Shown: piece after piece, positions 30,112-35,178 of the stretch
How positions within the stretch are numbered: position 1 is the stretch's first letter
Layout of the letters: every line of letters begins with the position of its first letter
NCBI GenBank assembly: GCA_014764485.1
Contig: JACXWA010000069.1
Span: 1 to 35,178 of the forward strand
Direction: 5' to 3'
Length of the DNA stretch: 35,178 bases
From: Candidatus Sulfomarinibacter kjeldsenii
GTDB lineage: Bacteria; Acidobacteriota; Thermoanaerobaculia; Thermoanaerobaculales; Sulfomarinibacteraceae
Notes under the pieces: generated by a model
Told to the model about the DNA's origin: nothing
The model's input: only the letters and a program-made list of their open reading frames with translations
The model's database searches: none
Made by a program: the position numbers and the translations under genes

Positions 30112-30222
30112 ATGTCGAGAAGATGTGTGACCTCAGACACTATTTCCAGAGGAAAACAATTCGACGGCCTTGCCAAAACAGTTGAAAAGCTTGCAAAAAC
30201 ATTTGAAGAGTTTATCAATTGA
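30112..30222 (+). CDS. Candidate small ORF encoding a heptad-repeat peptide (36 aa)
   Basis: Own translation: MSRRCVTSDTISRGKQFDGLAKTVEKLAKTFEEFIN*; LAKTVEK/LAKTFEE heptads encoded by two 21-bp tandem repeats (30169-30189, 30190-30210). Confidence 0.3.
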   Translation: MSRRCVTSDTISRGKQFDGLAKTVEKLAKTFEEFIN

Positions 30223-30284
30223 ATAGGAATAGTAATGACATTCATTACGAACAGCGCCCTGGAGGGCGCAGGAGGGCAATCGCT

Positions 30285-31088
30285 ATGGGGGGCAGCTCGA
30301 AGATCCTACGGGAGGGCCTGGGCTGGCTGGGCGCGGTCTTTGTTCTGGGAATCACGGTATCGGTGGCGGCGCCACCGATATTCGCCGCAGAACGGGCCGC
30401 TCCCATGCCTGGCGAACAAACGACCTGGAGTGGCGGCGGTGACGACAACGAGGAGGCGTCTTCTACCGCTGACGAAGTGACGCGAGACGGCATGGCCAGC
30501 CACAATCAGAAGAGCGACACCGCGGAAGAAGACAGTTTCGATCCGAAAGAAAACATCATCGCTATTCATGACAGCAGCTCGGAGCAATACAACAAGAAGT
30601 GCGGTGAGTGTCATGCAGAAATCCACAGCCGGCAGAGCCTGAATCCGTCGATACCTGCCGCACATCCGGGCATGGCCCCATATGCGGCCGGAAAACCTGG
30701 CGACGACAAGCAGTGCCGGTGGTGCCATCGCACGGTTGATCTCACGCAGGGCACACAGGCTTTAGATAAATCCAAGGGAAACCAGAGACGTCATGTGGAC
30801 GTGGCCCTCTGCACTCTGTGCCACGGGCCCTACCGCGGCGGACCTGGGCAGCAGTTCTACCAGTCGGGGCTCTCACCCACCGACCCCGACGGACCTGTGG
30901 TGTACGAGGTGGTCTGTGCAGGTTGCCATCGCGAGCTGGAAGACTCAGAAATGCTCGGCAAGAATGCCGAAAAAATCCAGAAAGCCATCGACGAAGACAA
31001 AGGGGGGATGGGTGTCCTCACCGTCCTGTCCACCCAGGAGATCGAGGCCATCGCCGCGGTCCTTGCAGAACCGGGCGAAGAGGACTGA
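30285..31088 (+). CDS. Tetraheme c-type cytochrome
   Basis: Four CxxCH motifs: CGECH, CRWCH, CTLCH, CAGCH; start ATG 30285 with SD GGAGG 9 nt upstream and hydrophobic signal LGWLGAVFVLGITVSVAAPPIFA. Confidence 0.88.
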   Translation: MGGSSKILREGLGWLGAVFVLGITVSVAAPPIFAAERAAPMPGEQTTWSGGGDDNEEASSTADEVTRDGMASHNQKSDTAEEDSFDPKENIIAIHDSSSEQYNKKCGECHAEIHSRQSLNPSIPAAHPGMAPYAAGKPGDDKQCRWCHRTVDLTQGTQALDKSKGNQRRHVDVALCTLCHGPYRGGPGQQFYQSGLSPTDPDGPVVYEVVCAGCHRELEDSEMLGKNAEKIQKAIDEDKGGMGVLTVLSTQEIEAIAAVLAEPGEED

Positions 31089-31091
31089 TCA

Positions 31092-34000
31092 GTGTCTAGG
31101 AAAGGACGGCATCTGAATATGAAAAGGGAAAAAGAAATTCACGGAATCAATCCGTCGGTGAACCGCAGGACCTTTGTGAAGGTGAGCGGGACGCTGGCGT
31201 CGGCAGCGGTAGCGAGCCGGGTTTTCAACCCATCGACAAGCTCCGAAGCCGCGGCGGCGGGCGTCCCGATCCTTACCGGGGAAAGCCTGCCGGACGAGAT
31301 CGAGAGTGCCGAGGACATCATCTACAGCGTCTGCCAGATGTGCCATTCACGGTGCGGCATCCGTGCCAAGGTCAAGGAAGGGGTACTCGTCAAACTGGAC
31401 GGAAATCCCTATCACCCGAACAACCGCGACGTCGACGAAAACAACAACCCGGACAGGATTTCCTACGAGACCCCCCCGGATCAGGCGTTCACAGAGCTCG
31501 GCCGGCTGTGCCTGAAAGGCCAGGCCGGAGTACAGACTCTCTACGATCCCTTCCGGATCCAACATCCGCTCAAGCGAGTGGGACCGCGAAACTCCGGCCA
31601 ATGGGAGACGATCAGCTGGGAGCAGGCCTTCTCCGAGATCGCCACCAGGATTCAGCAGCTGATCCCCGACCCGGGTGCGCTCATCGACCCAGCCATCCCG
31701 GAACTCGGAAAAAAGAGCAACCTTCTCGGTTTTGCCCCGGGCCGCAGCGTCGAAAAGGAGATGAGCGAGAGGATCTGGAAGAACGGCTGGGGTACCGCCA
31801 ACTACGGCCTGAGCCACACCTCGGTCTGCGAATCGACCCGACATGTGGCCAACGAGCTCATTACCTGGGATCCCGCGGGCAGCAAGAACAGCATGGGGGG
31901 TGGGAGGACCGAAGGCTGGCAACCGGACACCCTCGGTGCCGAGTACATCATCTTCTTTGGGGCCAACCCCCTCGAAGCAGACTTTCCGATGGTCGGCATG
32001 GCGCGAAACCTGATGCAATTCAAGCGGAACGGGGGCACGTACGTCACCGTCGATCCACGCTTCAACAACACGGCCGCACAGGCAGATCAGTGGGTCCCGA
32101 TAACCCCGGGTACGGATGCCGCCCTGGCGATGGGAATGATGAGCTGGATCCTGGAGCAGGGAGCACATCAAACCGGGTATCTCGAAAACACCAATCGAGC
32201 GGCTGCGGCTTCAGATGGCGAACCTACCTGGACCGACTCTACGTACCTCGTGGGTACCTTCAGCGACGGCGAGGGTAAGGAATACCAGCGTTACATCACC
32301 GCCAGTGAGGCCGGTATCTCCGGTCGGCCGAATGTCGCAGCCGACGACTATGTTGTCGTGGCCGGCGGAGTGCTCAAGGGTCACAACGAGGTGCCGCATG
32401 GCGATCTCGAGGTGGCGACCTCGGTCAATATCGGCGGCGTCGACACCCCGGCAAAATCCGCGTTTACCCTCCTGAGAGAGTCCGCCTTTTCCATGAGCCG
32501 CAGCGAGTACTCCTCCGTCTGCGGCGTCTCGGTGAGTGTCATGGAAGGCCTGGCCGAGGAGTTCGTGGGCCACGGCAAGAAGGCCGTCGCCATGACCTAC
32601 CGGGGCCCCATCAAGCACACCAACGGTTTTTACAACCAGCTCGCCATCCAGCATCTGAACACCCTGATCGGAAACTACGACTGGAAGGGGGGATGTACTC
32701 AAGGTGGTGGAGGCTGGAGTCAAAAATCCGGTGTCGTCAGCGTCAGCAACGTGGCCGGAGACCCCGGTCATGAGGGCGTTCGGATCGACAGGGCGAAGAC
32801 TTTCTACAGTCCAGCCGAAGCACCGAACCTGTTTTCGGGTTATCCCGCCCAGCGGCCCTGGTTTCCCTTCGGGACGCACGGCAATTACCAGGAGGTGATT
32901 CCCAGCATCCTGGACGGCTACCCCTACTCGATCAAGGCGCTGATCACATATTGGAATGCGTGGCCGTACTCGGTGCCGGCCTTGCGAGCGGTCTGGGAGC
33001 AGACCGTGGCTGACGAGAGCAAGCTGCCCCTCCTCGTGACCATCAGTCCGGTCATGGGGGAGGTCGCCGCCTGGGCGGACTACGTGCTACCGGACAGCGT
33101 CTACCTTGAGAAGTTCGGGGTTCCCGGGATTCCCTGGAGGGTCAACAAGGGAACCTCCTTCCAGCGGCCCGTCGTCGGCAAGTTCGACGGAAAATCGATC
33201 GGCGTGAAACCCGCGGACGGGGGTCTGGGAAACACAATCCCGATCAACGCCACCAACAACTACACACCGGCGTTGCCGAACACAAAGGCGGTGCTGGATA
33301 TCCAAATCGGGCTGGCGAAAGCGCTCGGCCTTCCGGGCGTCGGCGCCAACGCGCTCCTGGACGGCGATGGCACCATCGTTGGAGATCTCGACAACAATTG
33401 GGACTGGGCCAGAGCGTTGCTTGAAAACATCGCCGAAAACGCTCGCGGCAAACATCCGGGCATCACGGCCGAGGAGATCCTGTCAAAAGGAGGGGTCTTC
33501 GATTTCCCCACGGATGAATACGATGGAGATTACCTGTCATACCAGTACTCCAATATCATCCGGACCTTTGCGGACCCGGTTGCCCGTACGAGGGACTCGG
33601 TGACCGCAGCCTATTACTCGGGCGTGCCCCAGTACAAAGCGCTGACTCACTCTGACGGGTCCCCGCTTGATGATCGCGAATATCCTTTCAATCTCATCAC
33701 CTATAAGACTGTCCATCACGGTCAGGCGAGAACCAACGTCAACCCATGGCTCATGCTGATCATGCCTGAGAACCCGGTCGAGATCAGTGCCGCAGACGCG
33801 GCTGATATGGGAATCGAAACCGGGGATGTGGTGACGGTGAGCTCTCCGTCACATCGCGACGGCATCGAGGGAAGGGCTCTGGTCACCCAGAGGCTCAAAC
33901 CCGGGGTCATTGCAATCTCTCACCACTACGGACACTGGGAACAGTCCTCACGCCCGATGGAGATCGACGGCGTCACGACCGAACACGATCCCGGCCGTGG

Positions 34001-34199
34001 GGCGGGGATTCAGCCCACCCAAATAATGAGAACCGACGATCGTTACCGAAACGTGAGTCTCCAGGAGCCCGTCGGTGCGAGCTGTTCGTTCTTCGACACC
34101 TGGGTCAAAGTGAAGAAAAAAGGGATGGTAGAACCTCCTCTGGCCACAGGGATCTTCTCTGACGGCTTTGAGTCGGGGGACTCAAGCGCGTGGTCCTAG
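31092..34199 (+). CDS. Tat-exported molybdopterin oxidoreductase catalytic subunit (TtrA/PsrA/ArrA-like, DMSO reductase superfamily)
   Basis: Tat motif NRRTFVKVSG; VCQMCHSRCGIRAK...GRLCLKGQ [4Fe-4S] ligands; SHTSVCEST candidate Mo-ligand Cys; C-terminal molydopterin-binding VVTVSSPSHRDGIEGRALVTQRLKPGVIAISHHYGHW. True start may be ATG 31119. Confidence 0.92.
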   Translation: MSRKGRHLNMKREKEIHGINPSVNRRTFVKVSGTLASAAVASRVFNPSTSSEAAAAGVPILTGESLPDEIESAEDIIYSVCQMCHSRCGIRAKVKEGVLVKLDGNPYHPNNRDVDENNNPDRISYETPPDQAFTELGRLCLKGQAGVQTLYDPFRIQHPLKRVGPRNSGQWETISWEQAFSEIATRIQQLIPDPGALIDPAIPELGKKSNLLGFAPGRSVEKEMSERIWKNGWGTANYGLSHTSVCESTRHVANELITWDPAGSKNSMGGGRTEGWQPDTLGAEYIIFFGANPLEADFPMVGMARNLMQFKRNGGTYVTVDPRFNNTAAQADQWVPITPGTDAALAMGMMSWILEQGAHQTGYLENTNRAAAASDGEPTWTDSTYLVGTFSDGEGKEYQRYITASEAGISGRPNVAADDYVVVAGGVLKGHNEVPHGDLEVATSVNIGGVDTPAKSAFTLLRESAFSMSRSEYSSVCGVSVSVMEGLAEEFVGHGKKAVAMTYRGPIKHTNGFYNQLAIQHLNTLIGNYDWKGGCTQGGGGWSQKSGVVSVSNVAGDPGHEGVRIDRAKTFYSPAEAPNLFSGYPAQRPWFPFGTHGNYQEVIPSILDGYPYSIKALITYWNAWPYSVPALRAVWEQTVADESKLPLLVTISPVMGEVAAWADYVLPDSVYLEKFGVPGIPWRVNKGTSFQRPVVGKFDGKSIGVKPADGGLGNTIPINATNNYTPALPNTKAVLDIQIGLAKALGLPGVGANALLDGDGTIVGDLDNNWDWARALLENIAENARGKHPGITAEEILSKGGVFDFPTDEYDGDYLSYQYSNIIRTFADPVARTRDSVTAAYYSGVPQYKALTHSDGSPLDDREYPFNLITYKTVHHGQARTNVNPWLMLIMPENPVEISAADAADMGIETGDVVTVSSPSHRDGIEGRALVTQRLKPGVIAISHHYGHWEQSSRPMEIDGVTTEHDPGRGAGIQPTQIMRTDDRYRNVSLQEPVGASCSFFDTWVKVKKKGMVEPPLATGIFSDGFESGDSSAWS

Positions 34200-34257
34200 A
34201 TTTTCCACAGATAAACCGAGCCACCCTCAGTGTGCTCTGACAGGAAGGTAGACCCAA

Positions 34258-34890
34258 ATGGCGCAACTCGGCTGGTTGATTGATTTGGACAAATGTACCG
34301 GGTGCGACTCCTGTACGATCGCGTGCAAATCGGAGAACAACACCCGTCCGCTGACCTCGCCCGTGCCGTCCAAGAACGGCAGGGGCGTCCTTCCGGACCA
34401 CGTGAGCTACCGCTGGCTCGTCAAACAAGAAGCGGGCGTCTATCCCCTTCCGAGATTGACGTTCACGACCAGCGCCTGCAACCACTGCGAGCACCCGGGG
34501 TGTCTCGCGTCATGTCCGAAGGCGGATGTCAACGATCCCCACAACGAGAACAATGCGATCTTCAAGCGGGCGGAGGACGGCATCGTGCTGATCAACCAGA
34601 ACGTCTGTATCGGGTGCAGGAACTGCATCCACGCCTGCCCCTACGGAGCGCCACAGTTCAACTCGTCCACCGAGCTGGTGGAGAAGTGCACCTTCTGCAT
34701 CCACCGTCTGTACGACGGTAGCGGGATACGGACGGATTTCGAGCCCGCATGCGTCACGACGTGTGTCGGGAATGCGCTGCATCTGGTGGAGGATTTCGAT
34801 CCGACCCAGACAGGGCAGAATGCTCCGACCGGTTTTGCCGATCCATCGTACACAGTTCCCTCGACCCGGTTTGCAACGGGAAGCCCATAG
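34258..34890 (+). CDS. 4x[4Fe-4S] electron-transfer subunit (TtrB/PsrB/DmsB-like)
   Basis: CTGCDSCTIAC; CNHCEHPGCLASCPK; CIGCRNCIHACPYG; CTFC...ACVTTC. Confidence 0.94.
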   Translation: MAQLGWLIDLDKCTGCDSCTIACKSENNTRPLTSPVPSKNGRGVLPDHVSYRWLVKQEAGVYPLPRLTFTTSACNHCEHPGCLASCPKADVNDPHNENNAIFKRAEDGIVLINQNVCIGCRNCIHACPYGAPQFNSSTELVEKCTFCIHRLYDGSGIRTDFEPACVTTCVGNALHLVEDFDPTQTGQNAPTGFADPSYTVPSTRFATGSP

Positions 34891-34912
34891 GCATGCGCAT
34901 GAGGGGACCAGC

Positions 34913-35178
34913 ATGACGGTTGATCCAGAAGCCTGTGATGTCTTGAACAGAGTAGATTCGAACACCTCCCGAGAGGCCACTTTGGCGGGTAGAGAAGTGT
35001 CCGGTACACGAGCGATCGGGTCCTCGGAGCACCAGAGCTCCGAGGCGCGGGCCAACATGTACCGGTTCTTTTCCGCCGTCTACCTCTCCCCCATCGATGA
35101 GGATCTCCTACGGCGGCTGGTTGACGACGTGTTCCTTGACGAGCTCTCCACACTGTTCGGCGAACAGGCGGTGGCGGA
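34913..35178 (+). CDS. TorD/DmsD-family redox enzyme maturation chaperone, 3' truncated
   Basis: Own translation from ATG 34913: MTVDPEACDVLNRVDS...SSEARANMYRFFSAVYLSPIDEDLLRRLVDDVFLDEL; RANMYRFFSAVYL resembles TorD helix 1. Runs off the window edge. Confidence 0.65.
   Translation, partial: MTVDPEACDVLNRVDSNTSREATLAGREVSGTRAIGSSEHQSSEARANMYRFFSAVYLSPIDEDLLRRLVDDVFLDELSTLFGEQAVA

Follow-up and report, generated by a model that had tools for sequence, protein, structure and literature searches.

C-terminal sorting tags such as PEP-CTERM, GlyGly-CTERM, and MYXO-CTERM, paired with exosortase, rhombosortase, and myxosortase, respectively, are short C-terminal homology regions carried by many otherwise unrelated exported proteins, with a many-to-one pairing to a co-distributed partner, and occur in protein families also found elsewhere with other anchors (PMC3237569, PMC11980579). 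These tags are tripartite, i.e., composed of a motif, a transmembrane helix, and a basic cluster. The C-terminal domain (CTD) of type IX secretion (T9SS) is a C-terminal export and anchoring module related to a beta-sandwich, the signal being described as a whole conserved C-terminal beta-sandwich domain (PMC4804311). In chaperone-usher and type V pili, subunits of one fold are polymerised through donor-strand complementation and exchange, in which a strand from one protein completes an incomplete beta-sandwich of another, while in cohesin-dockerin assembly many enzymes are plugged non-covalently onto an envelope-bound receptor through a calcium-binding dockerin. Here, we examined a window of 35,178 nucleotides (the whole contig JACXWA010000069.1 of Candidatus Sulfomarinibacter kjeldsenii), in which a molybdoenzyme ends in an unusual tail, and compared this tail to these systems. 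Genomes, loci, and families examined are denoted by the prefixes G, L, and f, respectively. The relevant features of the window are as follows.

30219-31088, plus strand: multihaem c-type cytochrome, the upstream operon partner, found in the same position in orthologue operons
31092-34199, plus strand: TtrA/PhsA-like molybdopterin oxidoreductase (1035 aa), the tagged protein
31119-31262, plus strand: Tat-type signal region (MKREKEIHGINPSVNRRTFVKVSGTLASAAVASRVF...) of this protein; orthologues share the RR(T/S)F motif
34119-34151, plus strand: 11-residue linker KGMVEPPLATG, the first part of a lineage-specific C-terminal extension
34152-34196, plus strand: C-terminal tag IFSDGFESGDSSAWS, followed by the stop codon TAG at 34197-34199
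34258-34890, plus strand: TtrB/DmsB-like 4Fe-4S subunit without its own signal peptide
34913-35178, plus strand: start of a probable TorD-type chaperone gene, cut by the contig end, assigned from its position and its similarity to the third gene of orthologue operons (no Pfam match for the 88-aa fragment)

The molybdoenzyme, in which Pfam models identified Molybdopterin, Molydop_binding, and Molybdop_Fe4S4 domains, had TtrA as its best NCBIfam match (2e-120), but at 403 bits against an equivalog cut-off of 1750, and is thus best called TtrA-like. The corresponding operon (cytochrome, TtrA-like, TtrB-like, TorD-like, and in orthologues a ferredoxin-type protein) showed no obvious NrfD/TtrC membrane anchor in the stretches read (window positions 30219-35178 and loci L064, L065, L068, and L070). 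The protein ends in ...DTWVKVKKKGMVEPPLATGIFSDGFESGDSSAWS and a stop codon, which confirms the tail reported in the original prediction; its position there (34149-34199) was right to within a codon. Absence of the tail from orthologues had been proposed in advance as a test, and an integral tail as grounds for rejecting the idea of a tag. Ten relatives were found in public genomes (Delta-, Gamma-, and Betaproteobacteria, Nitrospinota, and Acidobacteriota; 57-77% identity over the best segment), and the nine that reach the C-terminus (64-77% identity) all stop at or just after ...KV(K/T/S/R)K, i.e., the residue aligned to position 1009, with none of the last 26 residues (34119-34196). A tail integral to the enzyme family is therefore rejected. 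Within the GTDB family of the window's own genome, the closest other homologue is only 41% identical, from which we infer that the gene was probably acquired from elsewhere and tagged in this lineage.

To evaluate whether this tail recurs, we searched genomes with a degenerate DNA pattern for DGFE[ST]G[DN]xxxW. Hits were found in 14 of 20 genomes of the family and in 60 of 149 genomes of the class, with 1-125 hits per genome, far beyond chance, since the reversed control pattern gave 0 hits in every genome. Outside the class, only 4 of about 350 genomes of the phylum had one hit each, and no recurrent neighbour gene was seen beside singleton tags outside the class (G156, G304) or in G014. In fetched loci, the stop codon followed within 12 residues in 99 of 113 motif copies. 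The window's own genome yielded a single tail, so that a condition stated beforehand as refuting a tag (no other tailed protein in the genome) would formally apply; however, this assembly is only 67% complete, and the genome of a sister species (G016) carries at least 15 tails once looser forms are allowed. The 130 distinct tails collected, almost all within 9 residues of a stop, define the consensus [IL]-F-x-D-G-F-E-[ST]-G-[DN]-T-S-A-W-S-x-x-x-P-stop, with 83 tails having exactly five residues after the W, of which 74 end in P. Synonymous codons vary freely and DNA downstream of the stop is not conserved, so selection acts on the peptide, which rules out a DNA-level element such as a terminator or mobile repeat. 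In one case (L129 and L140; G078:C1:45542-45628), two tagged genes converge such that their tag-coding ends face each other about 20 bases apart.

Tagged proteins are mostly exported and otherwise unrelated. Using a simple heuristic, export signals were detected in 34 of 39 tagged ORFs against 115 of 284 untagged ORFs in the same loci; this heuristic is loose, but the signals listed are mostly textbook ones, including a Tat-like one (L077). Cargo proteins include M36 (fungalysin) and S8 (subtilase) peptidases, LVIVD, FG-GAP, and BNR proteins, and glucose/sorbosone dehydrogenases, several of which match NCBIfam families named for a choice of anchor or for rhombosortase, myxosortase, or T9SS dependence. 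Use of the M36 family as a choice-of-anchor test was partly informative: some members are tagged, some carry diverged tails, and some are untagged. In particular, M36 peptidases of family f7 (L205, L207, and L209) end in IFADGFGMGSTVRWS, IFADSFGIGTDRWS, and IFSSSFGHGDFAHWS, which shows which positions tolerate change. The motif was occasionally found in other positions, i.e., inside RHS/YD-repeat-like proteins far from the C-terminus (L101, L103), and directly after the signal peptide of a PET-hydrolase-like protein (L109).

Comparison to described tags identified differences. No Pfam or NCBIfam model covered the tail in the 39 tagged proteins scanned, and no family was common to them. Compared to the PEP-, GlyGly-, and MYXO-CTERM tags, a 19-residue hydrophobic stretch was found in the last 45 or so residues of only 1 of 130 tails, and three or more K/R in the last 10 residues of 1 of 130; the tag is instead soluble and acidic (mean charge -2.9). 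Exosortase (PF09721) does not follow the tag, being absent from tag-rich G061, G062, and G018 and from G016 but present in tag-free families f2, f3, and f18, and secretins do not discriminate, as they are present in all genomes. Whereas the T9SS signal is a whole domain, only about 15-20 residues of a sandwich are carried by the cargo here, and the rest is a separate protein; T9SS components were not searched for in these genomes. Searches of an open-access full-text library, which lacks most subscription papers, returned no description of the motif and nothing matching such a system. What is already known is thus the general principle of C-terminal sorting tags, while the tag itself and its co-distributed partner, a secreted beta-sandwich instead of a membrane protease, are undescribed in the literature searched.

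The same motif also starts a complete domain in other proteins, in which it is followed by 180-260 conserved residues with no convincing Pfam or NCBIfam match. A scan of viral contigs (IMG/VR) added about 30 homologous proteins beginning with the motif, and many proteins on such contigs (L307-L367) begin with (M)xxIFxDGFESGD followed by a complete sandwich domain, forming a large, unnamed family. The tail was also found at the C-terminus of proteins on contigs classed as viral, with unknown hosts (L316, L317, L323, L325, L327, L334, L338, L340, L342, L345, L350, L357, L363), hence the tag is not strictly confined to this class. While an initial AlphaFold model based on 4 sequences was poor (pLDDT 60), AlphaFold2 applied to one of the viral-contig proteins with 31 sequences gave a pLDDT of 94.4 and a pTM of 0.91, with the motif segment ordered (strand at residues 4-6, pLDDT about 95 for residues 11-30). 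The predicted fold matches ConA-like sandwiches such as alginate lyase and calreticulin.

Searching the class with the part of this domain located after the motif revealed a small secreted protein, in which a signal peptide is, in most cases, directly followed by the domain starting at the second strand (...SLDVNADAAIVGNFGLEV...), usually ending in ...DEFESFRTLAP or ...SYR. The motif was found in 0 of 33 of these strandless proteins. In a profile alignment of the complete and strandless families, columns 25-200 aligned to 2-183 (E 3.9e-18), so only the first 24 columns, which hold the motif, and a short C-terminal end are left out. Hence, at the sequence level, the strandless protein lacks a strand-bearing segment that the tag would supply. 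One or two strandless partners were identified in 37 of 46 genomes with at least 5 tags and in 3 of 89 genomes with none (Fisher 4e-21; 0 of 20,000 within-family permutations), using the tag counts and partner assignments from the searches above. These statistics are not fully corrected for ancestry, and the strandless class was assigned by reading sequences, in a few genomes from ORF length alone. Nine genomes with at least 5 tags gave no partner, some of which are incomplete MAGs, although G012 (94% complete, 38 tags) is not, and no partner was found in the window's own genome, which its incompleteness may explain. Conversely, two complete genomes (G039 and G040) carry a strandless homologue without any detected tag, no alternative tail being found in the portions read (only 15 signal-bearing ORFs were checked for G040), and G110 has a homologue without strict tags, so the domain may have another role. 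Stand-alone partners have no visible membrane anchor; however, the strandless domain is followed by SLH repeats in four genomes checked by Pfam (G047, G048, G108, and G109), and by a dockerin (PF00404) in one (L275, G014).

Partner genes often lie beside sulfatase genes. Twenty-two of 40 domain loci contain sulfatase-family ORFs, with 38 such ORFs in 268 kb of partner loci against 3 in 742 kb of control loci (PF00884 confirmed in the five scanned). In loci L287-L295, L397-L408, and L415, these neighbouring genes often have lipoprotein-like N-termini, and their products share the C-terminal ending L(R/K)xLGY(L/I/V).

Taken together, these results are best explained by a C-terminal envelope-sorting tag acting as a detached segment of a beta-sandwich, an explanation we consider about as likely as not. 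In the intact ConA-like domain, the segment (I/L)FxDGFESGDxSAWS forms the N-terminal strand and clasp, whereas many proteins of this class exported through Sec or Tat end in this segment alone and the strandless partner carries the rest of the sandwich. After export, the tag (e.g., the peptide IFADGFESGDTSAWSSTVP) is proposed to slot into the open edge of the strandless domain, in a donor-strand-like complementation, attaching the cargo non-covalently to an envelope-bound receptor, which in some lineages is fused to SLH repeats. Such a mechanism would differ from pilus assembly in that the donor is a tail on dozens of unrelated enzymes and the acceptor a ConA-like domain, with no usher or pilus subunit identified, and from cohesin-dockerin assembly in that the tag is a segment of the receptor's own fold. 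Our analysis shows the tag family, its C-terminal position, the export signals on most carriers, its absence from orthologues, the homology of tag and partner to adjacent parts of one domain, and their co-distribution. Physical docking, location at the envelope or surface (suggested by SLH fusions and cargo families), and the step across the outer membrane are inferences; how cargo crosses the outer membrane, if it does, is open. Neither binding nor localisation was measured and no model of the complex was obtained. The original prediction of a sorting or anchoring tag added by fusion is supported by the absence of the tail from orthologues, its recurrence at the extreme C-terminus of unrelated exported proteins in sister genomes, and its co-distribution with a dedicated secreted partner, although that the tag sorts or anchors anything is still inferred, and its origin as a detached beta-sandwich segment had not been recognised.

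Alternatively, the tail could be a secretion or sorting signal read by another dedicated machine, for example an outer-membrane exporter or processing enzyme, with the strandless protein in the same pathway or just another component instead of the tag receptor. The extreme C-terminal position and many-per-genome distribution do resemble other sorting tags, the universal secretins mean that an export route may exist, and the partner occurs without tags in a few genomes. We nevertheless consider this less likely, given the lack of correlation with exosortase or secretins and the near absence of transmembrane helices and basic ends, and because it does not explain why the tag equals the very segment missing from the co-distributed protein. 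A link that is ecological instead of physical, with the strandless protein acting together with neighbouring sulfatases on envelope or environmental polysaccharides, appears more doubtful still. It is consistent with the sulfatase-rich loci, with G039 encoding partner and sulfatases but no tag, and with a predicted fold resembling lectins and polysaccharide lyases, but co-distribution holds within families, the missing segment is exactly the tag region, and SLH-linked versions lack sulfatase neighbours in the loci read. Finally, tails could be non-functional, eroded remnants of complete C-terminal domains, since complete C-terminal copies exist, mainly in family f8. This is very unlikely, as stop position and terminal proline are conserved across tails while codons vary, tails reach 125 copies per genome, and one was added to a gene with no close homologue elsewhere in the family.

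In its broadest form, which we consider possible but slightly less likely than not, bacteria of this class would use a split beta-sandwich as a general anchoring system, with dozens of exported enzymes each ending in the missing strand segment and snapping non-covalently into a shared, secreted, SLH- or otherwise envelope-bound strandless receptor. This would be a natural tag/catcher system unlike sortase-type, exosortase-type, or T9SS anchoring, and would be categorically new if docking by strand complementation is proved. These results provide a large set of exported proteins of uncultured bacteria with a common, testable sorting signal and a candidate receptor. If the docking is right, it adds a transmembrane-free and protease-free anchoring principle to bacterial cell biology, with a natural peptide-and-catcher pair that could serve as a protein-joining tool. 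It also shows a respiratory-type enzyme, apparently acquired from elsewhere, being fitted with the sorting tag of its new host lineage.
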